Shown piece after piece: positions 13,156-64,000 of a stretch of DNA of 64,000 nt. The stretch spans positions 372,001-436,000 of the forward strand of contig BSDZ01000103.1 of assembly GCA_030268105.1 (NCBI GenBank). The letters are read 5' to 3'. The notes under the pieces were generated by a model. It did not search any database and was not told where the DNA came from. It worked only from the letters and a program-made list of their open reading frames with translations. The position numbers and the translations under genes are program-made. Positions within the stretch are counted from its first letter, which is position 1. The number at the start of each line of letters is the position of its first letter. The stretch is from Volvox africanus. Lineage: Eukaryota > Chlorophyta > Chlorophyceae > Chlamydomonadales > Volvocaceae.

Positions 13156-16100
13156 ATGCACAGGTGCAATATGAGCAGCCGACAGGTTTATAAATTCCTT
13201 TTGCTCTTCTTGCCAATTATAACAGCAGCGGCGCAGCCGGTGCATGATTTTGTTCATGGTAGCACTTTATCCAGAAACTTGTGGCGGCAAGTCTGGGGGC
13301 CTGGCAGCTCAGCTTTGCCAACGGGAATAACGGACGTGTCGTCATTTGACGTCTCTTCGGCCTTGTATTTTGTAAGGCAGCTGGATTTCGCACTTCAACG
13401 TGTGTCGCCCTTCACAAAAGGATTCTGGTCAGAAGCCCTCACCTTAGCTCGTACATTTCCGCCGGTAGCCGATTGGACGACAGCTCGTTGGAAAGACGGT
13501 AAGTCAATACTTGCGGAGCATACCTCGAAGCTCCAGTTATGCATGGACGGCTGCATCTTTCTCTTCTTTAAGGTCTTTCTTCTTGATATCAGCGGCGAGG
13601 AGAGCCGACACTCCTTTACCATCATCACCCCTTGCGATTGTTCCATTCATCTCCCCGCGGACCGCTGAACCCTCCTGAACTTCCTCGCTGTGTTGCACAG
13701 TGAGAAGTGCCGAATACATAAACATAATATGTATTATGTTATATACATTATGTTACATTATATTTATACATATCTTATTATTTCCTGAGACTGCGTCCTT
13801 TACTGATTGCTCCAGTTGAAATCCCTGGCCCTAAGCCTTTGTCCTGCTACCAAACATTACTTCTTTCCCAATACGGTACAGGAACTCTCCCCAGATTTAT
13901 GGGATCGTTCGCCACCGACAATGGTCTTACCGATCCACGTGGGGTACCTATACAAAGAGATGTAGCTGCTACTGCTGCTGCTACGGCCGACATGATCGCG
14001 GGCGAGGGGGCTGTTATAGCTGTTGCCGCTGCTGACACCATCATTGGGACCCTCCAGGCCTCGCTCAGGAAGATTGGTGGAGCAGCAGCAGGGCAAATCG
14101 GTAGTACGGCAGCCTTAATCAGGCATGTTGTCGGTGACGGGAAGCAGTACCAGCACGACATTACCTCTGCTGCCACACATGGACAGCGGCAAGTCCGTCG
14201 GGTGCGGCGACGAGGACTCCAGACGGCCACCCCTTTTACCGAGCCCGTTGGAACCGCGGCGCAAATCGTCGCGGGTATCATCACGGGGCAGGTCGTCGAT
14301 GGTGCGGCGAAGCAGCTTGACGGTATAAGGAAGCCTAGCAGCAGAATAGATCCCGGTGACCTTAGTGCAGCCGCTGCCGGGAATCTCGCCGGCGGGTTTC
14401 GGCGTCAAGCCAAAAGGATCATAAGGGAAGGGCGGGCCGGCGCTGGCGCTGGCGCTGGCGCTGGTGCTGGTGCAGTTAAGAAGGTAGAGGCTTAAGGAGC
14501 GCGTTCTCGGAGTTACGCCCGTCTACGCCTGTCAACGACTTCAAACCCTTCGCATGCTTTATTGACCGGTTCCAAACTCTCCAAATAGGAAAGCCGTGCG
14601 GGCCTAAGGGCTAAGAATAGGTGCATACGGTTCCGTTCAAGCTGTCTATCTGACTTTGTTAAGCCAGCCATACATATTGAATCCTTACACGTTCCGGATC
14701 TGGAATCCAATATTCACTATAACAATATTTGTCAAATGACTCAATGACTGTGTGAACCCACGTAGGTGCTCCAGCCCGTACTTCACGCGCTGTTGCAAAC
14801 GGGAACCGGAAGTGTCATTACGGACACCTTGTTTAGCCTCTTCAATCGCCAACACGGTGCAAGGTAAGTCCAAGCAATAATAACAATTGTCTTAAAAATA
14901 TGTAAAATATTTTATAATGAAATGTGATACCGAAAACATGGTGGCAGTACTCTACCGGTAATATGCAATCCGCATAGTCCGCGTGCCGACGCATACATTT
15001 CATTAGTGCTACTCGATAGGTGGACCTAACGGTTTGTATGTGACAATTTGTTGGTTGTGACCAGAATAATTGACAACTGCCATACTACGAAAAACATCCG
15101 TACCGCCGTACTGCAATCTAACCGTTATCACTAGGTAGACCATTAGATGGTTAGTCAACCACTCATAATAACCACTACGTGATACTTTCATAAATTTACA
15201 CATAGTTGCAGTTGAAAAATCACCTTGATGCTCCTTTATCCATGCGTACCTTATTGGGACTCTTTCGCAAAGTACGCGGCAGCCTTTTTTAAGAGATCAC
15301 GCTCCTGGGTTACCCTAGCTAGTTCCTTCTTTAACCTCTTTAATTTATCATAAAGGTGTTCATCTGTTCGCATCATTGATTCCTGGGGTTTAGAATATTT
15401 ATCTACCCAAGTATACAGAGTAGTTCTTCTAATACCTAATTATTGAGCTGTTTGTGCCATAGGTCTCTTGGATTCAATTGCTAGTTTTACTGCTGATTCT
15501 TTAAATTCAGCCGGATAAATCTTTTGTTTCGCTTTTCTCATTCTGTACTTCCTTTCTGTTAATATTGTCTCATATTAACTGTCCGGAAAAGTATAACCAC
15601 ATCAATTTTAAACAACTATAAATTAATTACAATAAAATCATAATAGAAACCAACTTCGTAATGGGAGGAATATGTTTAAAACCTGCTTCTATTGTCTCTT
15701 GCACACGCAGAGCCGGAGCGCTCGACGAGCTCCTAATGTTGCAGCAAATCCTGCTGGACTACTTATACGGCAGCCCCTTAACTACGGAAATTATTCACAA
15801 GTTGATGTACGGCTTGATCGACGAGCTAGGTACGTTGTTGTCGGGGTTGCTGTTACAAGGTGATATGTGGTGGTGGTGTATGTACGCGCTTGTGTGCCAC
15901 TTACATGCGTAACATACGCTTACACACACACTCCTTTAAACACCCCTACACATACTCTTTCACAAACACATACCAGCACCATGATCCAACACGACCATGT
16001 GATTGTTGCGAGCGAGTCCCGTCATGCCGGGGGGATGCCCGTTTGGCATACGGGCTTGCGGGGAGTTAACACTATTGCTGCGGCGTCCTTTGATGAGCTT

Positions 16101-18321
16101 GACAGGCTTTATTTGTGCTGAGATGATCCTCTCGTAGCAAAATTTGTAATTGTGTAATTCGTCTGGGTCGTGGATGAGATCTTAGGCGAAATCTTTAGCA
16201 ATTTTTGCATTGGCGTAATAGGATTGTCAATAAGCGTTGAAAATTGACCCAGTAAACGCGTAGCGGGGCATATAGCTAATAAAGACGGGACGCTTTCCAG
16301 GCAATGCTCAAACCCTGGGTTTAGGGTGAAGGGCTTAGGGTCTCAGGACTCCCTTCGACTTTCTCTGTTTAGGGAAAATTTTGGGCATATGTCCACTAGG
16401 GCGGATATGGTGGCTGCAACTAGGAAATGTGAGGCCAGGTTATGTTTGGATCACATATGCATGAACGCGTATTTAGATCCACACGCATACACATACACAC
16501 ACGCGTAGACACCTGCAAGCCAAGGATGATTTGCGTCCGTACAACAATTTCTTACAAATGGCTTATCCGTTTATTTGTTTGCACTCATTTGAGCGGACCG
16601 TACATAGGCCAGTAACATCTTTATGATGATCCCTCCCGCCCTGGGCCTGGATCGGTCATGGCGGTGCAGCCAAGGCGGACAGCCGCCTCGACCTTGAAGG
16701 TGTAGCTCTGGACGCCATTACGGTTCTTCGTACGCTCCTTAACTCCGTACTCTATGAAGTGATGTTGGATGGCAGCGACTTACAGGAAGCATTTAAGCTG
16801 TCGGATGCCGACAGACGAGTCATGCGTCCGTTTTTGGGCAGGTAAGCGACTTACCTGGCTGGGACAGCATGTGAACCGCCAGGCAAACCTAATTTAGGCC
16901 CCCAAAAAACAATCTTCCCCTATCGTGTTGCGTTGCAGAAAGACGTTGTCTAAAAATTAATTATTATGATAAAAAAACTTGTCACTAAGTTGTAAGGCCC
17001 TCACGCGTCTTTGGCACGTGTATGCACCTGCGTGCTGTAGCTTGCCTAATCAGGATCCCTCTAGCTTTTTGTTAATTTGATTTGCCACGCGTGTTACCGT
17101 CCCAATGTGAAACTCCAGAAAACGATCCTCCCTCGTTGCTTCGGTGCTTGTGTGATTGTGTCCTGCTTGCGTGATCTACGTCCTCCTTAAACACTTCCGA
17201 CCTCTGACTTCCAACCAGCCGTTTGATAGCTTGTCAGACTTTCCCAATGCCGGATCTGGATACTTGCAGCCTTTTGAGACTTCTCGCAATTGCTGAGGAT
17301 GCCTTGGGGGCCTTATTTGAGGACTATCCAGATTGTGAGTAAGATGAACAGATTTGCATTCAGCACACGTGCATGTATCTTGTAGTACATTTTAATGGTG
17401 ACGTAAACAGTATCTTTACGAAGGGACACAGCAACTCATTTATCGCTGTATATTATCTACTCACACACGTTTTAGTACTCGTACAGTACAGCACAAAGAA
17501 TCTAAAAATGTAAGGTGAACTAATAAAAAACCTAGCAAGTAATACAAGACAGAAGGGCAGCTATCGTGCACGTGGAGACCACGCTGGTCCTACATTCCGG
17601 CATATAGATATCTTCGTAAACCTCTTGATGGCCTTCATCTTAAAAGTTACGACACTGAGAACCAGCATGTATTGTTGATCGACCAACTCTAATGACTGCT
17701 GCAGATAAATTTTCGCTGCCACCGTCGCCCAGCGAAATTCCCCCTCGGCCACCAGTTTCGGAGCCTCCATCACCACCGACACCTTCCAGCTCAACCCAAG
17801 GCCCACCCTCAGCTAATAAGGAGCCCCTTAGCCAAAGCCGCAGCCCCCCGCCCCCACCCAGCCCACGGCCCAGCCCCCCGCCCCCACCCAGCCCACGCTC
17901 CAGCCCCCCGCTCCCACCCAGCCCACGGCCCAGCCCCCCGCTCCCACCCAGCCCACGCCCCAGGCCCCCGCTCCCACCCAGCACACGCCCCAGCCCCCCG
18001 GCCCCACCCAGCCCCAAGCCTCCACGGCCCAGTCCCCCGGCCCCACCCAGCCCACGCCCCAGCCCCCCGGCCCCACCCAGCCCACGCCCCAGCCCCCCGG
18101 CCCCACCCAGCCCCAAGCCTCCACGCCCTATACCGCCTGTTCCTCCAAGTCCTCCACCGAAGCCACCCAGCCCTTTACCAATGCGCCAACCCTCTCCAAG
18201 AAGAAATCCACCGCCTCCTGCGCCCAAGCCACCAAGTACTCCCACTCCCAAAGTGTGGATTACTCCCAGGCGTTTGAGCACATGGCCATCCCCGCTGCCG
18301 CCCAGGTCATCGCCTCCCTGA
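13156..18321 (+). CDS. Gene A: secreted helical protein with long Pro-rich tail, 7 exons
   Basis: Exons: 13156-13498, 13816-14483, 14766-14863, 15711-15829, 16670-16841, 17270-17334, 17705-18321. All phases close, giving 2082 nt and 693 residues. A signal peptide ([16 protein letters not shown]) starts the protein; the ATG at 13171 is an alternative start. Exon 1 ends RWKDG, as in gene B. Exons 3-6 match gene B exons 2-5 in sequence and phase: [60 protein letters not shown]. Exon 2 is specific to gene A: Ala-rich, basic RRVRRRG, then a Gly-Ala repeat. Exon 7 is Pro-rich with nine-residue repeats (PSPRPSPPP type). No discoidin exon follows. Likely exported to the extracellular matrix; the helical region has no family I recognise. 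The last exon or its stop is the least certain part. Confidence 0.75.
15251..15541 (-). pseudogene. IS3 orfA (helix-turn-helix transposase subunit), one nonsense codon
   Basis: 96-codon frame starting ATG at 15541. It begins [20 protein letters not shown], continues with the HTH recognition part [15 protein letters not shown], and ends in the leucine-zipper-like segment [23 protein letters not shown]. This is the usual layout and length of IS3 orfA. A single in-frame TAA sits inside the HTH (AQ-stop-LGI), where relatives normally have a charged residue. No other break was seen. Confidence 0.85.
15284..15290 (-). promoter_or_regulatory. Programmed -1 frame-shift heptamer A-AAA-AAG of the IS3 element
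   Basis: In the orfA frame the codons are TTA AAA AAG, so the heptamer A AAA AAG is in the register needed for a -1 shift. Slipping leads into [19 protein letters not shown] and on to the orfB motif, as in working IS3 elements. Function here is inherited, not expected. Confidence 0.75.
16167..16214 (+). pseudogene. mnmE: mnmE (trmE) C-terminal fragment
   Basis: Sixteen codons read [16 protein letters not shown]. The ending of MnmE, the tRNA-modifying GTPase, is typically ...IFSxFCIGK, with the cysteine as a functional residue. The final Lys is replaced and the frame runs on to a stop; the upstream frame is broken. The fragment is in the gene A intron between exons 4 and 5. It is very short, so chance or an organellar/nuclear mnmE origin cannot be excluded. 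Confidence 0.45.
17840..18125 (+). repeat. 27-bp tandem repeat coding for Pro-rich nonapeptides
   Basis: Near-perfect 27-nt units (agccccccg...cccacccagcccacg) inside gene A exon 7. Each codes for nine residues of SPPxPPSPR type. Two further frames, one per strand, stay open only because of the repeat. Confidence 0.85.
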
Positions 18322-20155: not shown

Positions 20156-20165
20156 CTACAGGGTA

Positions 20166-20374
20166 ATGGATGGTAGGAGATATCAGACGGTCTGCATCAA
20201 GCTATAGAAGCAAAAGAACAAGTACCGATTCAAAATGAAAATCAGACTTTAGATTCTATCACTTTTTATAATTATTTCAGGATGTACCCCAAATTATCCG
20301 GAATGACCGGAACAGCCATGGCAGAAGCAGGAGAGCTTAAGGATGAATACAACCTGAAGGTAATATGCGTGCCG
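20166..20374 (+). pseudogene. secA: secA fragment (preprotein translocase ATPase), one frameshift
   Basis: MDGRRY at 20166 is followed, after loss of one base near 20183, by [31 protein letters not shown] and [20 protein letters not shown], ending near KVICVP. These are the consecutive helical-wing and motor motifs of SecA, uninterrupted by introns. Both ends are abrupt and the composition is AT-rich. SecA also exists as a nuclear gene for plastids, but the intronless, truncated, frameshifted state in intergenic DNA fits an inserted bacterial fragment. Confidence 0.8.
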
Positions 20375-21184
20375 GCTGTACGTTATCTTCATGCACACAC
20401 TTTCCACAGCACTATTCAGCCAGTCAGCAGAGGAAAAGTCGGATGTGAGCGGGCCCCTGCTGGACCCTGCTGGCTGCTAAAGTCCGAGAGCTCTAAAACC
20501 CCAAAACCCAAGTTAACCCAAATCGATCTGCTCTACTTGAACGTAATCAACTCCTGTGTGAATCAGTTCCAGTAGGGGACTAATCTAACAAGCAGGCCAT
20601 ATTACATCGATGTGTGACACGCTGACATGTACAACAGTAGTCAGGGGTCTGGAAGAGTTGGAAATCGAAGTTGCAAATCGAAAGTTGGAAACAATTGGAA
20701 GGAGTTAACCGCCAAAAATGCAACCTCAAACATCGTTCGGACCGGGACTGTTGAACAAACATATCTTTTACTCAGACAAAGAAAGTATGTTTTGGTCAAA
20801 TTAGGGTGCGAGGATGATGACTTTGATTTGGGTGAAAGAGCTACCTCAATAAAAGCCTTCAAATAATGTCGATCACGCTTTGTTATCATATGGTTTATCA
20901 GTTGGGATTTGTAACGATCCGTTCTAGCAACAATCGTGTTGTTGTAGCTGTACTCGGCAGCACTATCGACCCGCGCTCGTCCAATCTGTATTGCTATACG
21001 CGCGAGTATTTGTGTCAACTCCGGAGCGAACAATTATGTCTTCTTACAACAATCGGACACCATATAACAATTACTTTTGTTGAAATGTGAGCAACCCTCA
21101 TATACGAAAAAATGTCAGAGCAAATACTACGGCCCACGAGGGGCCGGGCGCTTTGCTGACTTCAACAACTTTCTCGTAATAACG

Positions 21185-22290
21185 TCAGGCTTCCCAATGT
21201 CTGGTAGGCTACATTACATCACGCTTACAGACAGAATTGTATTGAGAATGACAGCGGTGACAGCAGCAGCCATTGCGTGTTCTTTTTGAGAAACCTGGCG
21301 GTCATCATTGACCAAGGCTTGACCAAGGGTTCGAGCGGCTTCGCTTTAGGACGACCCGAAGGACAGCATGAAACTCGGGAGGGCGGGGAGAGGAGCTGGG
21401 CTTGGGTGGTGTGAGATCTCTCACGGAGGGGGGCCCCCTTATCAATATTACCGTCTTATATGTTCTACCGATTTATGGTCCATCGATTGATACCAATGAT
21501 TTTTGCAAAAGCAGATAGTAAATCTAGGCTATGATGTAGCGAATTTATGATCCAAGTTGCTTGAGTGGGCTCATCCAGAATCACTAAATCTGGTTTCCTC
21601 ATAAGCGTTCCAGCCAGTTTATACCAACACATATATCTTTTTATTAGGGGGACGTACTAATTATCCTATAAAGTGTGATATTTAGCTTCTTCGCGTCCAC
21701 TGAAGTAATTAATATAATATCCGTTCCTTGAGATAAAGGTTATATTATAATTTGATCTAGTTACTTGCGTACCGTGGCTGAGTGTAACTTGTTGGCGAGC
21801 AACATACCGAGCGAGAAGGTGGCGAGAGCACAAGTGGGCGGTGGGGATTACCTAAAATGGATGAATGCGTGCAATTATACATATAAAATATAATGTTACA
21901 TAAGCTTGCCTGCCTTGTGGCGGCGCAGTATGTATCGTAGTCATGCATGTGCGGTTGTGTAAACAAAATAGATGAGTGCCGACTTTTGCTGGTACTTGAT
22001 AAGCAAGCGCTGCAAGGGAAGTGAATGACATGCATAATCGCTTTATTACTTGTTTCGCAAAAACCTGTCGATGGAAATATGGATGCCTAATGGATTTATC
22101 TATACTGGATTTCTCCACTTTTGGTTCTTCCGAACCATTTTGGAGTACCTTGTTAGATAACGGAAATTTTAAAATGTTATCTTTATTATTTAAGCTTTTG
22201 TACCAATGAGCGAGATTGGTAGGGTGTTGCTGCTGTGTCGATTGCTCTGGCCATCACTTGAAAACATGAAAAGCTATTCTGCGGCTCAAA
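21185..22290. repeat. Duplicated block, copy 1 (empty-site copy)
   Basis: About 1.1 kb that recurs at 43015-44375 with few differences. Copy 2 carries a 243-bp solo LTR where this copy has the uninterrupted site at about 21641. A further ~110 bp at 20878-20990 is found inverted at 42842-42957. It contains a 55-codon Walker-B-like frame on the minus strand. Confidence 0.85.
21465..21632 (-). pseudogene. Short ABC-ATPase-like frame (Walker B) inside the duplicated block
   Basis: 55 codons from ATG at 21632. The segment [16 protein letters not shown] has the hydrophobic run, Asp-Glu and Pro-Thr of an ABC-transporter Walker B/D-loop. No Walker A or signature motif is present, and the expected SALD continuation is lost. 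Copy 2 (43290-43457) keeps the same frame with a few substitutions ([16 protein letters not shown]). Possibly a bacterial remnant carried inside a repeat. The match is short. Confidence 0.4.
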
Positions 22291-22510
22291 GGCCTCCAAA
22301 ATATCAGCTTTGTATTGTTTGTTTAGTATCAGACCTTGTCCAGGTTGTGCTTTTGCTAAAATAATAGTTGCTTTCTACACTGTACGGACAAATTGACTGG
22401 TCCCGTAAAGCGTAGCCGAACCAAGAAATATCAGTCTCATATATTAATTTTTGTATGCTAGTTGTAACAGTTACCAAGGAACTTGCATTGTGTTGCTGAA
22501 GGGTATAGAT

Positions 22511-37500: not shown

Positions 37501-37632
37501 TTACTATGCCCCATGGCCTTCCACAATCGACCTGTAATTCAGAATTGTTCAGCATGAAGCGCCTCAGGGGGGCCTGCCCTGTAGGATTATTGCCCATGTC
37601 CGTGTCCATGGGCGAAATAATTTGTTAGGTCG

Positions 37633-37684
<52 letters not shown>

Positions 37685-40600: not shown

Positions 40601-43600
40601 TTCTCAACTATATTTGATTACAAATAATAAACTGTGTTTCACATTTTTCATTCTGATATTACGGCGTTTGTCAAATCAATCATTCCCTTTGACGACCATC
40701 TTCCCACGATAGGACAAGAACAAGTGATAAACCTAATCTTTGAAGCTGAAATAAACGATGCAAACTTCTCTATTCAAACCTAATTTCGCGGCTTGGCTAA
40801 AGTGAAATGAGTAAAAAAACGTTTCATGTTCGCATTGGTCCAGCCCGCAGTCCAACCTTTGTCTCTTGACGAGCTTTTATATTACCACGGCTTATGACTT
40901 TGCATTTAACCTGCAATCCTTAACTGCAAAGTCATGAAACTCGACAGTTTGAACATACATGTGGCGCGATGCGGTGCAATGCGGCGCACCGCGCAAGCAA
41001 CACCAGGCACGTGGCACGTGCCAAGGCAATACACCATGCGACGTGACGTACCAAGCAATACACGCAAATTGTTGAGGTTTGGGATTGAAATTCAGCACTC
41101 GAATGCTGTTCATGTGCCTGCACTCTGGCCACGGGTGTTACATCGTGCGCGACTTTCCCTGAAAGGACAAGCACCGAGGGGCCTGATCGGATTTACACAG
41201 TGTGCATGTGTGTGTGTGCTATAGTATCTTGGCGTAGTGTCCAGGATGCACGTGATTTCATCCTTTGATCGAGAAGGTCTCGAATTCCACCTCCAGGAGG
41301 CTGAAGTGGCGATTGCAATTGGTGGATGCAGGAAGCTAAGCCGTGTGGGAGATAGAACCTTGACGGAACCAGTCATTCCAGGGTGGTGCTTCACCTGTCC
41401 TCGGATGTGAAAAAGATGAAAAGGAGGATGCTTATAGTATCTTGGTGTGTCGACGGATAGTGATTAGGATGGATCATGTATGGTTCTCTTCCGATCGGGC
41501 CTTCGCTTAAGCGGACATAACAGAGATACAACATGCGCACACACGCCTGTAAACTGTTATACTTCTGTAATGATATCCGCCTTACAGCAAAGGCCCGATC
41601 GGACAATGTCCAGTTTCCTAGTCATTCCGGATGTTAACCGTAGATACCCTATATATATAGAAGTATACTTGCCTAAATATTTAATTTAATAATCTCACCT
41701 TAAATTGGGAAAAAGAGACAATTTTGCTTTAAAGCCTGATTTTCCTCAGGCTGTTTTGGTAAGGCATATCATCTTGATGCGCGCACACTGTTGTATCTCT
41801 GTGTTAATAACCGCCAAACTGTTTAGGCCCGATCGGATGATGTCCACTTTCCTGAACATCCTGGATATTAGCCTTAGATACCCCAGGATACTACACACAC
41901 CTGCAAACCACAAACACAGTGGACAATCTATACACACAGTTCGCATGCGCATTCCTTATCCCCATCCCCCCTGTGTCCCGCGTCCCCCTTCCATCCTCCG
42001 TCCCCCCATCCACGCCCCTTGTGAAACGGGGGAACTTGCATCTCGGCATCATGTGCTATTACACATTGGTGCGCATTGCTAGGACTGACCTTAGGTCCCA
42101 GGGTCCCCGACAAGCGCACGACAGGATGCACATGAAATCCTTCTGCCCTACGGTGGATGCCCAGGCTGGTGCTGTGTCAGGGTTACTTCCCGACTCTAAA
42201 AATAAGAAATATGGGCGGTAGTGCCGGGAAAACAATAGAACCCCATACGTCGGGTGCACGGCGCAAGCTGCCCTACGGGTTGCCCAGGCTACCGAGGACG
42301 TTCAATGCAGGGTGGGGAGGATTGTGATTTGGAAACTCGCACCCCGGCATTACGTGCTATTTCACCCTGTGTTACACCTGTCCCCCATCTCCCGCCCATG
42401 TCCTACATCCCCCGTTCGTCTCCCGGTCCCCTTCCCCCATGTTCGCGTTCACGTTCACGCTGCACCGCGCCAAATCACGCTTGTGTTCGCGCCGCATTGC
42501 GCCATATCATGTCCCACAGCACCACGCCCGTAATTTGTTGAGGTTTGTCAGTCAAACTGCGCAGATTAAATAATATTCATAAAGATATGATTATTTACTG
42601 TTTCGTGTAGGTTAAAGGGCAAAAGGCAAAGGCTTGACTGCGGGCTGGGACCATGGAGACTGCGAGACCTGTTTCACTTCTAACTCATTTCATTTAGTCA
42701 AGCCGCAGGTATTGAAATGTAGACTACCGGACATAAGGAGGCCTGGCGTTATTAAGAGAAAGTATTCGTTACATAGTATCCGATAGTCAAAAGAAGACCG
42801 GATAGTTCGGTCCAGAGTTGGCTTAATAGTCGCGCGTAGCGCACTACAGATGGGACGAGCGCGGGTTCGCTAGTGTACTGCCGAGTACAGCTCCAATAAC
42901 GCGATTGTTACTAGAACGGATCGTTACAAATCCCAACTGATAAACCATATGATAACACGCCCCCTCGAGACGTTCTTAGCAACAAGCGACAAAAGAAAAC
43001 TTCTCATGAAACCGTCTTCCTAATGTCTGGTAGTCTACATTTATCACGCTTACAGACAGAATTGTGTTGAGAATGACAGCGGTGACAGCAGCAGCCATTG
43101 CGTGTTCTTTTTGAGAAACCTGGCGGTCATCATTGACCAAGGCTTGACCAAGGGTTCGAGCGGCTTCGCTTTAGGACGACCCGAAGGACAGCATGAAACT
43201 CGGGAGGGCGGGGAGAGGAGCTGGGCTTGGGTGGTGTGAGATCTCTCACGGAGGGGGGCCCCCTTATCAATATTACCGTCTTATATGTTCTACCGATTTA
43301 TGTTCCATCGATTGATACCAATGATTTTTGCAAAAGCAGATAGTAAATCTAGGCTAAGACGTAGCGAATTTATGATCCAAGTTGCTTGAGTGGGCTCGTC
43401 CAGAATCACTAATTCTGGTTTCCTCATAGGCGTTCCAGCCAGTTTATACCAACACATATATCTTATTATTGTTGTGATATGCGGTCAGACTTCTTCATGT
43501 GTTCATTGGTTGAACGCATTGTCAGGAACGTACTGCGGCTGAATTTCAAATGTGAAGGGTCTTATGTACGATCCTTCACCAAGTCGCTACTTATTCCCCG

Positions 43601-47641: not shown

Positions 47642-47680
<39 letters not shown>

Positions 47681-50600: not shown

Positions 50601-52888
50601 ACGATGTACATGGAGAGATATTTGAATAAATGAGTCTATTAGATCGTTTAGATCGTTTAGATTTAATGCTCCACCTGCTGCAGGAAACCTTGCCATGGGC
50701 AAGACGGCATACTCATCGGGCGGATACTATCCCGCCTCATGGGCTGTGGATGGCGACATCTCCACGATCGCATCCTCTTACCCAGACAGCTACTACAGAT
50801 GGCTGTCGATTGATTTGGGTGCCAGATACGATATCAGCCGCATTGTGTTGTGGAACGATGATACGGGGAGTTGCTGCTACTATGAGCTACTATATGCAGA
50901 GATCCGTGTCGGTCCGTACACCATCACATCTCAAGATGAAGTGTACAACTCTATGAGTAAAAACACATTGGTTTGGACGCCAACTTCCAGCTCTATTGGG
51001 TACGACACCGGCCGATCCTACACCATGGATTTGAACCCTCCAGTTATGGGCCGGTGGATCACCATCAAGGGCGCCGGCTACTATACCAGTGAGATCTGAC
51101 TGAACCCGCCATTTTACTTTCCTTTGATTACGTTGAACACCAGGCATGGTACTTTCTTTAATGCACATCTCGTTGTAGGTTAGATTCACTAGACAGAGTA
51201 GCAACGTAATAGTATGAACATATATAATAATATGCGTACCGATTAATAGTCTACTATCTAATGTGGTAGCAGTCTTGGATTGATAAAACATTCAAACCTG
51301 AACAAAGATGCAATCAAATTAACTGGCCAGTCAAATTTTATTTGATATCCAGCGGACAGCAGCAACCAAATGTTCCATCTGCTGAGGAGATAAAAACAAC
51401 AAGAATATATGTCGCAATAGCGACAGCTGAAATTCTCATTCTGGGAACACAGGTGGTCCGGCTTCCATTAGTCCAGAGAGTGGCCTCCATCTTATTCCGG
51501 TATGGAATCCATAAGCCTGCCACCAGGTTATGGAAGCATTTTATGGAGCGGAGAAAGCCTTCAATGTAACAGTATATTGGCTGGTATGGATGGCCTACAT
51601 AACTAAAGAGATCACTAAGCATCTCAGTTCTAGGCATGCTTAACCTTAGGGTTTTAGCCGTTCATGACATCGGAGGTTTTAAGGGTTTGTCCGGGCGCGC
51701 GGCCTGACGAAAAGCACACAACACTCTTGCTTTGACCGCTTCTCTAAATAAACATATAGCCGCAATGAACGTTTCTTCCTTGTTAAGTTTTATCCGGTTC
51801 TGGCTGAGTATCCTGCAAACAGTAAAGAGTCGCGAACCTGGCATTTGGGCAATGAAGGAATTTCTTTGGTCAGCGAAAGTCATGAGCTGATTACGCTTTC
51901 ACTGTTATAGGAATGCAACTAACAGGCATTCCCAGGTCGCCTGATGCAATGCGCCGCGTTCACCTCCAGATATGCGGCTGTGGCGGCTGGTCAACAATTC
52001 TCCTGACGGTCGTCTAACTCTTATTATGCTCTTAGCTCATTACGAGTTCCTTTACTTATAAGTTCCGAGATCATACTATGGTCAGAAATCCCATGGCGAG
52101 CTCTATCCCACTGCATTATGTATGTCGCAGGTTATGTGAAGGTAGCGGAGATTGAAATCTTTGGAACGCTCGGTAAGGTTGTATCTCATTCTTCATTTTT
52201 TACCTTAATTATATTACAAAAATGTATGAAGCAGGCTAGTAGTAGATGTCAGCTAGCAAGATGGAGCAGCTATTCACTGCTAGGCTTAACTTTGAAGCAA
52301 AAGCACCCACCAAGATGTAAATGTATCAATTACTTTCTCAGCTTCTATTTTTGTGCATTTGTGTTGGTGGACTAAAGGATATTCTATGAGTACGGTTGGT
52401 AAGCACAGGGATGAGAAGAAATTACGTCATTATTTCACGGCCTTTAAACCATAAAGAAATCTTTACTTTATCTCCCTCTTCAAGATAATTTAGAACTTCA
52501 TCGACAGTTTTGAAAGCAGATTTTGCTTCATCGAAATTATCGTAAAAATCCTTTCCTATACCGACAATTTGAGAACCCTGTCCGCCTATTCATGTGAGCA
52601 ACTGGCCGAGAATGACGCCATGCCAACCACCTCATGTCCTGTCGTATGTAATGTTTCCCGTATGTGGGCACATTACACATGCATGCCGGTCCCAGCTCCA
52701 CCTTCGCCACCTTCACCACCATCGCCACCGGTTCCAAGTCCTTCCCCACGCCCTCCTAGCCCTCCAACGCCACGGCCCCCTCCATATCCTCCGGGAACGC
52801 ATGGAGGTGAGTTTCAGAGCACATGAAACATCGACACGTAACAATTATATTGGTGCATCGCGACCCTGCAGATATGCTTTAGAATGTA

Positions 52889-52928
<40 letters not shown>

Positions 52929-54003: not shown

Positions 54004-54042
<39 letters not shown>

Positions 54043-60000: not shown

Positions 60001-62513
60001 ACCTGTTTTACAGTACGATAACTTCGGAAGTTTTCGGTATGGACTCCAGAGTTCTACCTACTGCTATGGCATGTGTAGCAGTCGTCTTAACGATGCTGGA
60101 GTTTCTATGCGGAAGCATCGACTTTGTCGGCTTAGGAATGGCTCACAAGTATGACAGTGCAGCAAACTGGTATACCTAATGGTAACCAGTGGCAGCGGAG
60201 TCTTGAAACCCCGAACAAGTAGTAATGTAATACTTTGTTATCTGGCAAAAGCACTCCACCATAGTGACTGTAATATTGGTTCACCCGCCAAGATGTACGG
60301 CGATCAGCATTTGCGTATCGTGAGCTTTTCATGTATCATGCTGTTCGCATGATAACCTTTTAATATTTTTCGCCTAAAGGTATGCAGTTTACTTATGCAG
60401 ATCCACCCCTGGAGCAAACCGTCTGGGGAACGTTATCGTCTCCTCTAATGTTGGAGTTTCATCTTCAGCGGGTTTTGGTCGGGCTTTGGCTTTTAATTTC
60501 CGCGCATACTCATCAATGGCGTCTGCCACATAAGCAGATTGTCTCAGTGATGCCTCGGGTTCATAAGTGTTATGGGTGGAATCATATCCTTCCCATTTGA
60601 TAAGGTACTCTCGACGAGGTTTACCTTTGCCCCCACGGATTGAGACATCCCTGTGGTCTACAATGGCTTCAACCATGTTTTACGGCTCACCCTCGATTAA
60701 GATTGGTGATGGGGTTGTCGCATAGTATCCTCTTTAAAAGGTTTTGAGAGTGACACCGACTGAAATACCGGGTATAGGTGAGAGTCACGGGGCAATTCCA
60801 ATTTTTCCGCCGTGTCGCCAATATTTGCAACAACTGTATATGGGCCGATGAACTTAGGCATCAGCTTCTTTGTTCCAGGTTTTCCATACCGGAATTGAGG
60901 GTTGAATAGACGTTTGAATGTATTACTCATTTCACATTAGTTAGGCTACAAATTTGAGGGTAGATTAGGCAAATATTGACCGTTTAACTTTCGCTCAAAA
61001 AATTTGCTTTATCACTTGTCCTCGCCATACGGGTGGATGATGGTCGTCAAAGGGATTGGTTCATTTGTCAAACACCGTTAGCTCAGATTGAAGAAATGTG
61101 ACACGGCACTTTGAGCAAGCAAATGTGGCTGGAGAAACGTTGATATCACGTTGATCATGCCAAACTTGTTTGTGCTCATATAATGTTTGTTAGCTAGAAC
61201 GAGATGCCATGCAAGATAGAATAAATCAGGCTATCAACATTGCTATCAGGCTATCTCAGGCTATCAACATTACATTAAGATGGTCGAAAAATCGTGTTTA
61301 ATCGTTACACAGAGACACACACACACACATATATACACATAGGTTATTCTACAGGGCAGGGCCCCCTGAAGCGCTTTACCCTGGGGCCCCGCCCCCAAAG
61401 CTAGTCAATATACAAGTGTTTTTAATCGCCACCAAGATGATGTATTTACCTCTTCCTCTCTCTATATCAACCTTTTAATGTTACCTCTCTATCTATCTTT
61501 ACCTATTTGCTAGCTATTTATTTACCAATCTAGTTATCCATCTGCATATCTATTTGTCGAATTATCTCTTATTTCGTATTATTCCGTCCATGTAGCTATG
61601 TAGCTATGTAGCTATCTATCTACCAATCTATCTATCCATCCATCTTTCCATTTCTCTGTATCTCTCTCTGTCGCTCTCCCTCTGTGTGTGTATCATACAT
61701 CGATCTACACGAATGAACGTACATATATGGATTTGGAGAGAAATTTCGAGCACTTTGTTGTGCAGTTTCAGAATAGTGGAAGCCATAAAACAAAATGACT
61801 TTTGATGTCCAACAAGTACAAAGCCCTTATATGCACATAACTGTGACCGGTAGTAGTACCATGCATGCACTCATGGAGGTAACATAAAATATACATAAAG
61901 GATTGTTTTCAACTTACGTTTTTTTATGTGAGCAAAAAAATGATTTTCCAAAAGTGTATTTGTGCTTGAACTTCAGTCCTGTTGAAACGCGGTCCTGGAA
62001 GAAATCAAGCATACGTTCCTGCTCATATGCACTTTTACGTATACAGAATAAGCAAGGGATGTACATGCATATTTATGAAGGGAATGACGACATTCACTTC
62101 GTCATTTCATGTCACAGGGAACCTCGCCCTAAGAAAGCCGACGTACTCATCAGGTGGGGAGTACCCAGTCTCACAAGCAGTCGATGGCGACATCTCCACC
62201 ACCGCCAGCACATGGCCGGATACATCATCAAAGTGGATATCGATTGACCTACGCGCAAATTGTTCAGTTAGCCGCATCGTCCTCTGGAACAATGAGGACT
62301 GCTGCTGGGCCGATTATAAAGATTCAGAGATTCGTCTTGGCTTCAGGAGCATTACCGCCCTTGATGACACGTCGTACATTTCGTACAACCAACGGGTATG
62401 GTCGAGTTGGGACGAACCCAATTACGATACCACCCCTTGGGCGAAATATGTGGAGGTAATCCTGAACCCGCCCGTCATGAGCCGCTGGGTAATCGTACAG
62501 AGTAGTAATTTCG
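22511..62513 (+). CDS. Gene B: secreted modular protein with six discoidin-type domains on Pro-rich spacers, 22 exons seen
   Basis: Exons: 22511-22811, 24113-24266, 24445-24560, 25282-25453, 25605-25675, 26100-26399, 27621-28031, 28373-28417, 35182-35283, 35581-35988, 36366-36410, 36983-37087, 39613-40017, 47898-47942, 48184-48321, 50684-51088, 52131-52172, 52696-52806, 54838-55242, 56315-56356, 56589-56678, 62118-62513. All GT-AG, all phases close, 4309 nt so far (at least 1436 residues). Signal peptide [16 protein letters not shown] (start at 22511, not the in-frame ATG at 22451, because the peptide begins there). Exons 2-5 share the gene A helical region. From exon 6 on, a Pro-rich exon, an F5/8-type-C exon and a short closing exon repeat six times, every exon phase 1-1. 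The family binds sugars or ligands outside the cell; an extracellular-matrix role is inferred. The 3' end is not resolved: a weak last exon from 62806 (ttttcttag/AGGCTTGC, stop near 62907) is possible. Confidence 0.8.
26100..28417 (+). CDS. Gene B module 1 (exons 6-8)
   Basis: Pro-rich exon 26100-26399 ([18 protein letters not shown] type, the longest spacer), discoidin exon 27621-28031 ([69 protein letters not shown]) and closing exon 28373-28417 ([12 protein letters not shown]). The most diverged of the six domains. Its introns hold a solo LTR and a SINE-like element. Confidence 0.85.
26718..27055. mobile_element. Solo LTR of the chromovirus family (diverged)
   Basis: Starts TGTTGTATCACC and ends CACAACA, following the LTRs of the 28605-35046 element along its length but with many differences. 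It is flanked by a perfect 5-bp duplication GGTTG (26713-26717 and 27056-27060). No internal sequence. Lies in the gene B intron before module 1's discoidin exon. Confidence 0.88.
27130..27544 (+). mobile_element. SINE-like retroposon with TAA-repeat tail and 14-bp target duplication
   Basis: 415 bp flanked by the perfect duplication ATAAATGCACATAT (27116-27129 and 27545-27558) and ending in (ATA)n. A Pol III B-box-like TGTTCGAATCT lies near its 5' end at about 27184; a clear A box was not found. No coding frame. Tail and duplication type match the retroposon at 46446-47068. Confidence 0.75.
28605..28912 (-). repeat. 3' LTR of the chromovirus
   Basis: 308 bp, TGTTGTAT...ATACAACA. Nearly identical to the 5' LTR at the other end. 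Confidence 0.95.
28925..31667 (-). pseudogene. Chromovirus pol: RT, RNase H, integrase and chromodomain (frame-broken)
   Basis: RT lies at 31152-31667 ([28 protein letters not shown]). A one-base change near 31170 moves the reading into RNase H (TDHKPLTFL) and the H2C2 zinc finger ([10 protein letters not shown]...CDDCQ) at 29980-31164. A second change near 30085 leads into the integrase core ([31 protein letters not shown]) at 28925-30076. That frame ends in a chromodomain ([27 protein letters not shown]), which defines chromoviruses and is thought to guide integration to marked chromatin. The breaks make this copy non-autonomous, unless they are base-calling errors. Confidence 0.92.
31694..33220 (-). 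pseudogene. Chromovirus Gag C-terminus and aspartic protease, split by an amber codon
   Basis: Frame 33220-33020 is basic and Gly-rich with a short Cys cluster ([14 protein letters not shown]). It ends at TAG 33017-33019 (GNGH-stop-GLAQ); the same frame is open again from there to 31697 and carries the protease motif [12 protein letters not shown] second TAG at 31694-31696 separates it from RT (LDEV-stop-RQV). Read-through is possible in principle, but simple mutation is the cheaper explanation. Confidence 0.85.
33312..34412 (-). CDS. Chromovirus Gag (capsid part)
   Basis: 366 codons starting ATG 34412. The retrotransposon Gag core is visible in [32 protein letters not shown], and [20 protein letters not shown]. 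The frame leaves Gag near 33390, where the continuation ([16 protein letters not shown]) is one frame away. Confidence 0.88.
   Translation of the reverse strand: MASLFALAGGRNRVNTYSGLPSPRPIAVAMASGSQAQQAVPAVGTLPDAVDQHTGRLDAVANSGNETTLNCIPSMGIANEPVNVFAAAPPVPATQTPSRRTRDGQPILPIAERSPSTTHSAAELPRVSLPIPVLMLDDKLDAKKISARVRAFIRDVNLFFGVIPWGQDQRSCCLFLSQALRGNAKVWYDEWSLSQTQLTGEAILENLRIRFAPQILSVEQEARQKLADKSSYMRTGENVPAYHAHLEALFQDIPDIHPREKLFWFQQGLSGVLQPKCAADEKGRPFTSYDDLVRHASGEEARILAERRFRSGVCSNAITMQDVVGYDAMEASDAEPPAKRVRCVSTAGCRCRRRHRSFLSVPSPSA
34741..35046 (-). repeat. 5' LTR of the chromovirus
   Basis: 306 bp, same termini as the 3' LTR, followed on the minus strand by a TGGTATC primer-binding-type site. Confidence 0.95.
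35182..36410 (+). CDS. Gene B module 2 (exons 9-11)
   Basis: Spacer exon 35182-35283 ([20 protein letters not shown]), discoidin exon 35581-35988 ([59 protein letters not shown]) and closing exon 36366-36410 ([13 protein letters not shown]). The intron before it contains the whole chromovirus. Confidence 0.88.
36983..47942 (+). CDS. Gene B module 3 (exons 12-14)
   Basis: Spacer 36983-37087 ([20 protein letters not shown]) with acceptor cctag/GCACATCG, discoidin exon 39613-40017 ([56 protein letters not shown]), closing exon 47898-47942 ([13 protein letters not shown]). The intron between the last two exons is 7.9 kb and packed with insertions. Confidence 0.85.
37559..37775. repeat. CA-microsatellite-linked repeat, copy 1
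   Basis: A perfect (CA)n run at about 37632-37680 is joined to 'ggcaatccgacagggcaggg...gaggcgcttcac' and 'tttcgcccatctgaaaagca'; an inverted partial copy of the GC-rich part precedes it at 37559-37590. Other copies: 47637-47740, 50481-50555, 53084-53232 (inverted), and 61312-61395. Confidence 0.75.
38392..38660. repeat. Fold-back repeat, copy 1
   Basis: Arms 'gggtacggctctttgctgct' and 'agcagcagggagccgtatcc' are inverted around a 60-bp loop containing 'cgaaggcccgaacgaacg'. A second copy lies at 55773-55995. No coding capacity. Confidence 0.7.
41435..41894. mobile_element. Cluster of three ~100-bp transposon-like repeats with CCGATCGG core
   Basis: Copies 41435-41532, 41554-41655 (inverted) and 41790-41894 (inverted). 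Ends are GTAGTATC-like and GTTGTATC-like in inverted orientation, and the middle holds CTTCCGATCGGGCC. A partial start is at 41220. Further copies: 46256-46355, 47452-47558, and 48382-48480. No coding capacity, so a non-autonomous (MITE-type) family is likely. Confidence 0.7.
42036..42370. repeat. Dispersed repeat shared with 58600-58935
   Basis: Both stretches share, in order, 'ggtcccagggtc', 'tggatgccc(a/g)g', 'ccgggaaaacaatagaa', 'cggcgcaagctg', 'ccgaggacgttc' and 'accctgtgttaca'. No coding frame is conserved. Confidence 0.65.
43015..44375. repeat. Duplicated block, copy 2 (with solo LTR)
   Basis: Second copy of 21185-22290, in the gene B intron between exons 13 and 14. It is interrupted by the solo LTR 43470-43712. 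Two ~105-bp direct repeats (42713-42822 and 44508-44613, 'gtaccggac...cggtccggagttggc' type) flank it. Confidence 0.85.
43470..43712. mobile_element. Solo LTR with perfect 5-bp duplication and known empty site
   Basis: 243 bp, TGTTGTGA...TCACAACA, flanked by ATTAT on both sides (43465-43469 and 43713-43717). The sister copy at about 21641 shows the unoccupied site. Related LTR sequence is at 59508-59640, next to a chromovirus pol remnant. Confidence 0.88.
44622..46126 (-). pseudogene. Ty1/copia remnant: Gag, zinc knuckle, protease region, integrase (no RT)
   Basis: Gag ([20 protein letters not shown]) is followed by a zinc knuckle [13 protein letters not shown] whose last Cys is a stop codon. 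Next come a protease/linker region, the GAG-pre-integrase ([14 protein letters not shown]...CEPCIYAKQ), and an integrase core ([28 protein letters not shown]). Several frame changes. Similarity ends at about 44622 inside integrase, with RT and RNase H missing. Lies antisense in the gene B intron between exons 13 and 14. Confidence 0.87.
46446..47068 (-). mobile_element. Full-length tRNA-derived SINE, 623 bp, 13-bp target duplication
   Basis: Flanked by TAGAGGAGATGAT on both sides (46433-46445 and 47069-47081). Read on the minus strand it starts with a tRNA-like head (47068-46998) and ends with a (TAA)n tail at 46446-46457. The body is non-coding. A perfect 10-bp hairpin (CCACAGGTTG/CAACCTGTGG) follows the head at 46964-46997. 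Confidence 0.88.
46998..47068 (-). tRNA. tRNA-like head of the SINE (pseudo-tRNA, Pol III promoter)
   Basis: 71 nt with acceptor stem GGCAGCG/CGCTGCC, D stem GCTT/AAGC, A box TAGCTTAATTGG and B box GGTTCAAATCC; CCA follows the discriminator A directly. The T stem has one mismatch and the anticodon arm does not pair, so no amino acid is assigned and a working tRNA is unlikely. Its role is promotion of SINE transcription. Confidence 0.7.
48184..52172 (+). CDS. Gene B module 4 (exons 15-17)
   Basis: Spacer 48184-48321 ([19 protein letters not shown]; acceptor ggtccccag/CTCCA), discoidin exon 50684-51088, nearly identical to module 3 ([16 protein letters not shown]), closing exon 52131-52172 ([13 protein letters not shown]). 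The intron after the spacer carries the long palindrome with bacterial core. Confidence 0.87.
48781..49220. repeat. (AAAAT)n / (TATAA)n microsatellite
   Basis: Pentanucleotide tract, left arm of the palindrome, grading from AAAAT-type units (about 48800-48990) to pure TATAA units. Confidence 0.95.
49234..49481 (+). pseudogene. Ribbon-helix-helix antitoxin-like gene, one nonsense codon
   Basis: The frame reads [20 protein letters not shown], then [42 protein letters not shown], with TAA at 49407 and the natural stop at 49479. The beta strand KRTTIYL followed by two helices is the CopG/ParD type DNA-binding fold of bacterial antitoxins. No ATG is preserved. AT-rich, intronless, in a gene B intron. 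Confidence 0.8.
49519..49776 (+). pseudogene. Putative partner of the RHH gene (toxin-like, unrecognised), one nonsense codon
   Basis: 86 codons from ATG 49519, broken once by TAG at 49639. Reads [20 protein letters not shown], then [20 protein letters not shown]. It starts 38 bases after the RHH stop, in the same orientation, which is the usual arrangement of toxin-antitoxin pairs. I do not recognise the family; the toxin role is inferred only from position and size. Confidence 0.5.
49890..50424. repeat. (TATAT/TATTA)n microsatellite
   Basis: Pentanucleotide tract, right arm of the palindrome; complement of the left TATAA units, with rare interruptions near 50138-50146 and 50303. Confidence 0.95.
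52431..52588 (-). pseudogene. fabD/infC: Chimeric bacterial fragment: fabD 5' part joined in frame to infC part
   Basis: One open minus-strand frame reads [20 protein letters not shown] and [12 protein letters not shown], then [20 protein letters not shown]. The first part matches the N-terminus of malonyl-CoA:ACP transacylase (GQGSQxVGMGKD signature). The second matches the IF-3 C-terminal domain motif (LxxGDKVKxxxxFRGRE). They are unrelated proteins, so the joint near 52487 is a rearrangement. It lies in the gene B intron between exons 17 and 18. Confidence 0.8.
52696..56356 (+). CDS. Gene B module 5 (exons 18-20)
   Basis: Spacer 52696-52806 ([20 protein letters not shown]), discoidin exon 54838-55242, nearly identical to modules 3 and 4 ([16 protein letters not shown]), closing exon 56315-56356 ([13 protein letters not shown]). 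The discoidin exon is preceded by a solo LTR that module 3 lacks. Confidence 0.87.
54396..54804. mobile_element. Solo LTR with perfect ACATG duplication, absent from module 3
   Basis: 409 bp, TGTTCTAC...GTACAACA, flanked by ACATG (54391-54395 and 54805-54809). The matching intron upstream of module 3 (about 39570-39612) has one ACATG and no insert. Confidence 0.85.
55773..55995. repeat. Fold-back repeat, copy 2
   Basis: Second copy of 38392-38660, with arms 'gggtacggctctctgccgct' and 'agcagagagctgtaccctg'. Confidence 0.7.
56589..62513 (+). CDS. Gene B module 6 (exons 21-22, closing exon not found)
   Basis: Spacer 56589-56678 ([16 protein letters not shown]) and discoidin exon 62118-62513 ([52 protein letters not shown]), donor G/GTGAGT. 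The expected closing exon was not found before the bacterial block at 63188; it may be lost or replaced. Confidence 0.83.
59508..59640. repeat. LTR-like sequence related to the 43470-43712 solo LTR
   Basis: Starts TGTTGTGA and follows the complement of the solo LTR ('aaaggtccagttcagcacaa', 'gctggacaagcgagctgcca'). The other end is not defined. Confidence 0.55.
60389..60930 (-). pseudogene. Chromovirus pol remnant (integrase C-terminus and chromodomain)
   Basis: [19 protein letters not shown] and [20 protein letters not shown] (60697-60930) are followed, in another frame, by a chromodomain VEAIVDHRD...[19 protein letters not shown] (60389-60676). Upstream pol is absent. It differs clearly from the full-length element, so it is a second family. 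Confidence 0.85.
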
Positions 62514-63187
62514 GTGAGTATGCTAACTGACCGGGTACATATGGTGAACATTTATATGTTTTTAATATTATAATTGTACGCATTTTAATCATTGCTGCAT
62601 GAAACGAACCGTTTGTTGGCAATATAGGTATATGTCAGTGAGCGAATCGTGAAATAAAGGCTTCCAATACAAAACATCGTAGCATGTAGTATAATATTAA
62701 AACCGGCTTTTGTGGGGCTTCACCAGGCCTTAATATCATCATCATGTATCATATATGTATATATATATATGTGTGTGTGTGTATATATATATTTTTTTTT
62801 CTTAGAGGCTTGCTCTCATACATCATCAGCATCTCAGCAGGAGCTCATGGTGGGGCGGTGTAGTTACGTCTCGGTATATACAGGAAGTATCATATATATG
62901 TTCATATAAATTTACGATGCTATGAGCTTACCAATTGTTCTAATCCTGAATTCTTACGACATGATCGATCGTTACATACCTACATCTGTCAAATGTTAAA
63001 CATGTAAAACATGTATATATAAACATACATGTTTCAATCGTTTTCAACATTCGACTATATATAATATTATAATGAATATATGAATGTTCATATGAATAAT
63101 ATATATTTATATTAAAATTAAATACATTTATATATAAATATTATAATACTATTCTATAATATTATAATAATTACGGTTGCATGGTAT

Positions 63188-63425
63188 TTAAAAGTCCGAA
63201 ACTCTTTTGTTAACTTCCCAGTCACAATATCTAGTCGGTTCTGGTCCACCAAATCCTTCATCATTACCCAATCCCGGAAGAGGTTTATCTTTTTTATTTG
63301 CCGTATGTATTTGGGGGTAGAGTATTATCCGATAATTGCTTTGGAAATGGTTCTTTTCTAATATCTGCATTACGTTTACCTGTTGATCTTAAAGATTTTT
63401 GTAATGTTAGCGGGGTGTATCTGAT
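63188..63425 (-). pseudogene. DUF1674 (Sdh assembly factor 4-like) gene, frameshifted
   Basis: The C-terminus GNDEGFGGPEPTRYCDWEV ends at a stop 63188-63190; GPEPTRYGDWE is the signature of DUF1674/SDHAF4, a helper of succinate dehydrogenase in alphaproteobacteria and mitochondria. The upstream part (SLRSTGKRNADIRKEPFPKQ) is in a neighbouring frame, so one indel lies near 63300. Start not defined. Confidence 0.7.
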
Positions 63426-63455
63426 TATTTTTGAGGAAAGCTGTGGAGTATAAAT

Positions 63456-63643
63456 TAGCTTCATAGAAACTTTTGAAGAAAATATTGGCATTCTTATCGG
63501 ACCTGAAGGTGGTTTTTCTCCAAGTGAAAAGGAAAAACCTAGATCTACTCCTAAGATTATCTCTGTAAGTCTTGGAAATAAGGTGCAAAGAAGCGAGGTA
63601 GCTGCAATTGGCACGGTGGCATGCGTACATTTAATTAGAGGGT
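63456..63643 (+). pseudogene. rsmE: rsmE 3' part (16S rRNA m3U1498 methyltransferase)
   Basis: FEENIGILIGPEGGFSPSEK and SLGNKVQRSEVAAIGTVAC are the SAM-binding knot motifs at the RsmE C-terminus (GPEGGFxxxE; SLGxxxLRxEtA). The stop at 63641-63643 is 6 bases before rnhB, as in an operon. The 5' half is missing and is replaced by the oppositely oriented DUF1674 sequence, so the left junction near 63440 is a rearrangement. Confidence 0.82.
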
Positions 63644-63649
63644 AAGGAA

Positions 63650-64000
63650 ATGGATTTATCTATTGAATCAAATTACCAAGGGGTAGTAGCTGGTGTAGAC
63701 GAAGCGGGCAGGGGCACACTAGCTGGCCCTGTAGTAGCTAATGCTGTTATTGTTGATCAAAACAATTTAATTGAAGGCATCAAGGATTCCGAAAGATTGT
63801 CTAAAAATATAAGAGAAGGATTATACGTAAAAATTACCCAAAATGAAGTCTGGTCAATTGGTGTGTGCAAAAGAATTGATGAAATATACACACTAGAAGC
63901 AACAAAGAAAGCTTGTGTCATTGCGGTAGGAGGGTTGATAAAAGAGCCTTCGGTAGTAATTGTAGACGGTAATATGAAATTTAGTGATAAATGGTTTGTA
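63650..64000 (+). CDS. rnhB: rnhB, ribonuclease HII, 5' 117 codons, open to the window edge
   Basis: Removes RNA from RNA-DNA hybrids in bacteria. Start ATG 63650, preceded by a Shine-Dalgarno-like AAGGA (63644-63648 region). GVDEAGRGTLAGPVV carries the first two catalytic acidic residues; IKDSERLSK and VIVDGNMKFSD follow the family, the latter with another catalytic Asp. RNase HII is about 200 residues, so a little over half is visible, with no break. AT-rich with bacterial codon use. The unbroken frame means a recent transfer, a bacterial contig joined by assembly, or luck. Confidence 0.9.
   Translation, partial: MDLSIESNYQGVVAGVDEAGRGTLAGPVVANAVIVDQNNLIEGIKDSERLSKNIREGLYVKITQNEVWSIGVCKRIDEIYTLEATKKACVIAVGGLIKEPSVVIVDGNMKFSDKWFV

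Follow-up and report, generated by a model that had tools for sequence, protein, structure and literature searches.

Short, often mutually joined pieces of Candidatus Megaira DNA in a Volvox africanus locus and across its genome assembly

A 64,000-bp stretch of the genome of the green alga Volvox africanus (assembly GCA_030268105.1; contig BSDZ01000103.1, here C100, positions 372001-436000; hereafter the window) contains short pieces of bacterial genes that derive from the lineage of Candidatus Megaira (Rickettsiaceae), whose DNA they match at 75–100% identity. At several places, pieces from unlinked donor loci lie next to each other in one insert with little or no homology at the joins, that is, the insertions are mosaic. 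We think it likely that end joining repeatedly captured endosymbiont DNA at chromosome breaks, as with mosaic nuclear mitochondrial DNA segments (numts) and nuclear Wolbachia transfers (nuwts). An earlier annotation of the window, made from its letters (the original prediction), had read scattered, truncated and rearranged bacterial fragments transferred from Rickettsiales; eight of the nine gene identities that it named are real, and its guess of the donor group was right and is here narrowed to Ca. Megaira.

We compared 144 kb of the contig (C100:342001-486000, the window with 30 kb on its left and 50 kb on its right) by blastn with one complete chromosome, that of the Ca. Megaira endosymbiont of Mesostigma viride (CP084576.1, to which all donor coordinates refer), and used the same chromosome reversed as a control. 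The scan gave 45 matches at E ≤ 1, compared with 6 for the reversed chromosome (five of these at 35196-35267), and at E ≤ 1e-3 the control gave none in the 144 kb. The pieces at E ≤ 1e-3 were 15151-15604, 16170-16214, 20159-20377, 21497-21618, 37819-37933, 41669-41717, 43322-43443, 52428-52583, 63175-66058 and, outside the window, 105107-105164 (window numbering is continued beyond 64000). A local scan of seven stretches added 15634-15669, 64981-65024 and a borderline piece at 52369-52417 (E 0.001), the best reversed match having E 0.008. If each donor place is counted once, the eight places between 15151 and 66058 represent 18 donor loci, with one duplicate in addition. Accepted pieces make up 2,193 bases of the window (3.4%), and none spans an entire donor open reading frame (ORF) of CP084576.1; the original prediction had called the fragments intronless and mostly truncated. 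Eight places in 51 kb compare with one E ≤ 1e-3 match in the other 93 kb scanned; the window was picked since an earlier reader had noticed the locus, so this local density is not evidence of a hotspot.

Donor genes were named by profile matches of the donor ORFs. IS3, MnmE, SecA, exonuclease III, ThrS, RlpA, FabD and InfC were above the profile cut-offs and ZnuC was below its own; the further profiles were those of an integrase/transposase, a symporter/histidine kinase, an IS200-type transposase, RsmE, a KsgA-type methyltransferase, a DDE transposase and an outer-membrane barrel.

Neighbouring pieces stem from donor loci far apart at four places (21497-21618, 37819-37933, 52428-52583 and 64981-65303). 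At the first, on the minus strand, the start of xth (exonuclease III; 21497..21561, donor 849775-849839, 85%) abuts a piece of an ABC ATPase gene that is best named znuC, the top NCBIfam model (21562..21618, donor 952795-952851, 81%). At the second, a 34-bp piece of a transposase gene (37819..37852, minus strand, donor 147910-147943, 91%; donor ORF profiles Mu-transpos_C_2/rve, which we interpret as IS21-like) is followed by a piece of a symporter/histidine-kinase gene (37851..37899, minus strand, 82%, E 7e-4 and 1.5e-6 locally; several similar donor copies; SSF/HisKA/HATPase_c) and by one of rlpA (37886..37933, plus strand, donor 516427-516475, 88%). At the third, a piece of infC (52428..52490, donor 635792-635853, 94%; IF3_C in the window ORF) meets the start of fabD (52484..52583, donor 1208393-1208492, 91%), both on the minus strand, and the join between these two genes had indeed been predicted; ahead of them lies the possible, borderline piece of an IS200-like transposase gene (52369..52417, plus strand, donor 558182-558230, 78%, E 0.34 and 0.001 locally; Y1_Tnp). 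The fourth place lies in a larger block beyond the window end, described below.

The joins themselves are tight. Three are gapless (21561/21562, 65194/65195 and 65256/65257) and four overlap by 2–7 bp (37852/37851, 52490/52484, 65024/65020 and 65303/65302), so that homology is 0–7 bp at seven joins; at two others about 10 bases are unassigned (52417-52428 and 64971-64981). Joins of this kind were also seen on other contigs: on contig C26 a piece of a donor IS21-like element meets donor position 502,529 with a 5-bp overlap, the same join being present at 1636305, 1646685 and 1664515, and on contig C13 two pieces of one donor element are joined in opposite orientation at 3745489.

The largest piece is a Megaira block of 2.9 kb that ends at 66058, of which 63175..64000 (plus strand) is in the window. 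This part carries the end of a DUF1674 gene on the opposite strand (PF07896), the end of rsmE (PF04452) and rnhB with a stop at codon 153 (PF01351), three genes that the original prediction had named; beyond the window end it continues with a decayed ORF and the internal mosaic 64981-65303. The block (63175-66058) is collinear with 3.2 kb of the donor (508034-504801), keeping the donor order rsmE-rnhB-ORF, except for about 330 bp made up of five other pieces, one of which, at 65195, reads like part of an MFS transporter ORF of the donor. Donor sequence 505529-505581 flanks the internal mosaic on each side, and the two copies are near-identical and share differences from the donor. One possible order of events is that an older Megaira insert was broken in a staggered manner and the gap was filled with five more Megaira pieces, which would have left the duplication of about 50 bp; were the shared differences those of the donor strain itself, this order would be less certain.

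The whole block lies within a 3758-bp phase-1 intron (62514-66271) that splits an F5/8 domain. The host exon ahead of it (62100..62513, plus strand; 62513 is the splice site and 62100 an arbitrary end chosen for reading) and the exon starting at 66272 are predicted from the sequence to splice in frame (...SSNFG-DTPLRIAEIEVYG). All pieces had been predicted to sit in introns or intergenic DNA; this holds for the 63-66 kb block, and the other pieces do not overlap recognised F5/8 ORFs, which is a weaker statement about their position. At least the largest block is presumably tolerated because it is located in an intron.

The rnhB frame, at 63650, runs for 152 aa to its stop and was the sole piece polarised for lineage-private changes. 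Over these 152 codons the alga-private changes numbered 11/10/18 at codon positions 1/2/3, compared with 2/1/10 and 1/1/12 in two Megaira genomes, and the rsmE end differs from Megaira by 8/14/17. Summed over eight further coding pieces, the differences from Megaira are 20/16/56, which suggests that the divergence there is mostly older than the transfer. The stop in rnhB, its relaxed codon positions and the truncation of the pieces point to non-functional, decaying DNA.

One of the joins has been copied together with host DNA. The xth and znuC pair lies inside a 1.1-kb host segment (21190-22294) that recurs 22 kb away at 43016-44367 with 97% identity, and the second copy of the pair (43322..43443, minus strand) is 96% identical to the first. 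The duplicate segment has an extra 243 bp; these bases (window 43471-43713) have inverted ends that read like those of a small transposon, and a related stretch is found at 71291-71480. No third xth and znuC pair was found in two assembly-wide searches, in which contig C36 showed 60 bp of xth alone.

The remaining pieces in the window are as follows. An IS3-family piece (15151..15604, minus strand, donor 1353279-1353732), which runs from the end of the element's first ORF into the start of its transposase ORF, matches at 92% over 454 bp, and the donor ORF matches NCBIfam transpos_IS3; the predicted IS3 identity was thus confirmed, and its proposed start at 15009 was not, since no match begins before 15151. 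It is followed by a 36-bp piece of thrS (15634..15669, minus strand, donor 637845-637878, E 0.008 in the 144-kb scan and 7e-5 locally). The predicted mnmE tail is the final 45 bp ahead of the stop (16170..16214, plus strand, donor 550128-550172, 100%), and the predicted secA is a piece at 20159..20377 (plus strand, donor 1071812-1072031, 86%; Pfam SecA_DEAD in the window ORF). A 49-bp piece of a 508-aa donor ORF lies at 41669..41717 (minus strand, donor 641095-641143, 82%, E 7e-4 and 8e-7 locally). A ribbon-helix-helix (RHH) pair, also predicted, did not turn up when 62 ORFs were scanned with Pfam (one ORF plus 61 of the 75 listed AT-rich ORFs of at least 40 aa). Pieces that the prediction had missed are thrS, both copies of xth and znuC, the IS21-like/kinase/rlpA trio, the 49-bp piece at 41669, the IS200-like piece and the five-piece mosaic past the window end.

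The donor group was examined with RnhB. When the RnhB frame was searched against 84,980 species genomes, two loci were found, both at 84% identity, one in a lake Rickettsiales metagenome-assembled genome and the other in CP084576.1. A protein search gave 7,649 matches; among the best 120, the first 98, at 79–86% identity, include Ca. Megaera polyxenophila and the Megaira symbionts of Mesostigma and Stentor roeselii, and the other 22 comprise three at 79–83% (two of them over 77–82% of the query) and the rest at 61–76%. In a 42-row RnhB tree the algal row falls together with the Megaira rows in a group of 26 rows, where its branch is long (0.3); the fork of this group is drawn open, at 85/94, with a bootstrap that had not settled. 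An organelle origin of the pieces is ruled out by the 75–100% matches to Megaira DNA and by the donor order rsmE-rnhB-ORF in the largest piece.

The original prediction spoke of a shower of fragments at one matrix-gene locus. The pieces are not special to this locus: of five Megaira queries (58 kb, 4% of the donor) searched against the whole assembly (140,993,249 bases, 126 contigs), four matched many contigs. The first two queries were chosen because donor loci of window pieces lie in them and the fourth because it contains a ddl gene, whereas the third and fifth were taken blindly. The first (donor 1,060,001-1,080,000) gave at least 46 matches from the 40 candidates scored out of 90, and 34 of these matches lie in donor elements of two or more copies; the second (500,001-520,000) gave at least 46 from the 40 candidates scored out of 50, and five of these matches are the window block. 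The third (760,001-766,000) gave 40 matches, 29 of them to one 200-bp stretch at 78–79% that was set aside, and the fourth (360,001-366,000) gave 16 from 16 candidates, 40–340 bp long, on 16 contigs. The fifth (120,001-126,000), mostly a nonribosomal peptide synthetase (NRPS) gene, gave no match in the assembly. NRPS proteins of the Mesostigma Megaira strain are reported to have their best matches in cyanobacteria (PMC9098888), so the actual donor may have lacked this gene.

In total, with the 200-bp repeat excluded, the five queries gave at least 119 matches on at least 37 of the 126 contigs. The identities of the 119 matches listed are 71–100%; 112 of them reach 80% and 61 reach 90%. A control query, a 20-kb AT-rich cyanophage stretch, gave 13 matches (best E 7.9e-10, identity 65–84%), all to one 411-bp stretch. 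The last three queries extrapolate to about 2,170 pieces and 0.24 Mb, and all parts outside insertion sequence (IS) elements to about 2,260 pieces and 0.55 Mb (2,130 and 0.48 Mb without the window block); the 34 matches of the first query were omitted from the latter kind of estimate because they are in multi-copy donor elements. These figures are rough, as only part of the candidates was scored and duplicates within the alga were counted separately, and they suggest that the assembly carries roughly 2,000 Megaira pieces. Dating by the identity spread among pieces of one donor segment was considered and rejected, the best candidate segments being multi-copy donor IS elements.

Three arrangements seen in these searches deserve mention. 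At C36:55643-57470, pieces of donor 518542-519254 and 519248-519995 are collinear, with 7 donor bp repeated around a 360-bp interruption, which resembles an insertion with target duplication. At C26:1627696-1681719, Megaira pieces are present in several nearly identical copies, a pattern that local duplication of a mosaic would produce. The 200-bp stretch that was set aside belongs to a Megaira gene of the TENA/THI-4/PQQC family and is present at 29 places (78–79%) on C57, C53, C51, C33, C32 and other contigs; many copies are in tandem with a period of about 6958 bp (C57:54069, 61027, 67985 and 74943), and one guess is a rickettsial piece inside a tandem array such as ribosomal DNA.

How might this pattern have arisen? 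In the reading we favour, an algal ancestor would have carried a Ca. Megaira endosymbiont, and DNA of dying symbionts would have entered the nucleus and been captured many times as filler at chromosome breaks. This would leave single pieces as well as chains of unrelated pieces joined end to end with little or no homology, which would then decay as non-functional DNA, some being duplicated together with host sequence. From the observations above we infer end joining at breaks, its repetition over time, and a symbiont that was formerly intracellular and has since been lost. A broader version is quite possible, and we hold it only tentatively: symbiont DNA may long have served as a constantly available filler for repair. 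The nuclear genome would then be a layered fossil record of Megaira, with short mosaic patches in the thousands that outnumber the nuwt loads quoted below, and later duplication would have multiplied some of them.

Several observations weigh against repeated capture by end joining. The symporter/kinase and rlpA pieces overlap by 14 bp (37899/37886), which is long for simple end joining and may reflect alignment ambiguity. No empty site is available, both copies of the duplicated 1.1-kb segment carrying the insert. For six of the 119 matches the E-value does not improve on the best control value (7.9e-10), although their identity is at least 86%, and seven matches have an identity under 80%, so a few matches may be ordinary homologues. 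At this locus the donor loci show mild clustering (4 pairs within 6 kb compared with 1.0 expected, p 0.02, among 16 places after two multi-copy places were dropped and with a threshold chosen after looking), and contig C117 has two adjacent donor stretches, overlapping by 4 bp, that now lie 45.7 kb apart. The last two points indicate that part of the scatter is later break-up, and some pieces probably arrived together and were separated later.

The same two points could be taken further, in that one or a few large Megaira insertions arrived first, and transposons, duplication and deletion then broke them up and scattered the parts, so that the mosaic would mostly be a later product. The collinearity of the 63-66 kb block with 3.2 kb of the donor and the host duplications that carry inserts also fit such a history. 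However, unlinked pieces of 34–100 bp meet without host sequence between them, five within 330 bp at one place, whereas after the shredding of a collinear insert one would more often expect host sequence or neighbouring donor sequence at the joins. We therefore regard this history as unlikely as the main source of the pieces and prefer repeated capture at breaks.

Contamination or assembly error, by which reads of a living symbiont were merged into algal contigs, is conceivable given that Megaira is known from some volvocine algae (PMC4324946), but we consider it very improbable: inserts were duplicated along with host DNA at 97% identity, rnhB shows relaxed substitutions, the block sits in an intron with the frame intact, and the spread covers 37 contigs. 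Furthermore, a symbiont contig would give long matches, and the longest single match to the sampled donor DNA was 2.7 kb of a 20-kb query, so no intact Megaira contig was seen with the sampled 58 kb. Least probable of all is that some pieces are retained for algal function as recruited gene parts; most coding pieces do differ from Megaira chiefly at third positions, as noted for the eight pieces, but this bias is expected from bacterial divergence before transfer, no piece is a whole gene, and rnhB has both relaxed change and a stop.

The kind of insertion is known, since nuwts and mosaic organelle inserts have already been described. The nearest case is that of Kawafune et al. 2015, who described one rickettsial region of about 9 kb, carrying four genes, in V. 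carteri EVE and argued that it had been transferred from a symbiont near that of Pleodorina japonica (PMC4324946). It resembles our pieces in its Megaira-type donor, volvocine host, truncated genes, adjoining unlinked donor pieces (16S beside murB) and host repeats inside, and differs in being one region, whereas V. africanus has many short pieces on 37 contigs. Its arrangement, in which a 768-bp murB, a ddlB interrupted by about 1 kb and 75 bp of ftsQ lie together in about 9 kb (PMC4324946), was not found in the V. africanus assembly with the 360,001-366,000 query, in which only 2033-2155 and 2226-2271 were matched within the ddl ORF.

Nuwts in filarial nematodes reach 653 regions per species, totalling 188 to more than 400 kb; these too are genome-wide, mostly non-functional Rickettsiales DNA, also in hosts that no longer carry the symbiont (PMC12693587). 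They concern animals and Wolbachia, whereas for this alga we estimate about 2,000 pieces and 0.24–0.55 Mb, pieces and regions being different units. Plant mosaic organelle insertions (numins) likewise combine fragments of separate donor places in one nuclear insert with end-joining signatures (PMC6215612), but their donors are organelles present in every cell, and ours was a symbiont that can be lost. Genome-wide Megaira inserts or a mosaic architecture at such a scale in an alga were not found in the open-licence papers searched, judged by titles and the starts of abstracts.

The V. africanus case illustrates how bacterial DNA can enter the nucleus of a non-phagotrophic alga, as many short, often mutually joined pieces and not as whole genes. 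It bears on the raw material for symbiont and organelle gene transfer, here with a donor that can be named and pieces that can be mapped, and it offers a means to tell which algae formerly carried Megaira. It is also a warning that bacterial matches in algal assemblies need not be contamination.

The host setting of the pieces is eukaryotic: the window contains an ORF with an F5/8 type C domain (Pfam) and several similar-reading ORFs, together with what read like proline-rich matrix-type and retrotransposon-like ORFs in a volvocine style. The F5/8 type C series runs through 35553-36023, 39463-40028, 50630-51099, 54849-55268 and 62100-62530, spaced by 4–15 kb, and three members are 91–95% alike in DNA. 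The retrotransposon-like ORFs are on the minus strand at 28925-34412 and 44612-46302, and their reading suggests Ty3- and Ty1-like elements. A tRNA-Gly(TCC) gene is present on the minus strand at 46995-47068, and two long runs of TATAA/TATTA tandem repeats occupy 48789-50424. Beyond the window, at 89894-100284 (C100:461894-472284), a unit of about 1.73 kb is repeated in tandem with copies 95–99% alike, and it is partly related to the retrotransposon-like ORFs at 29.2-31.8 kb.

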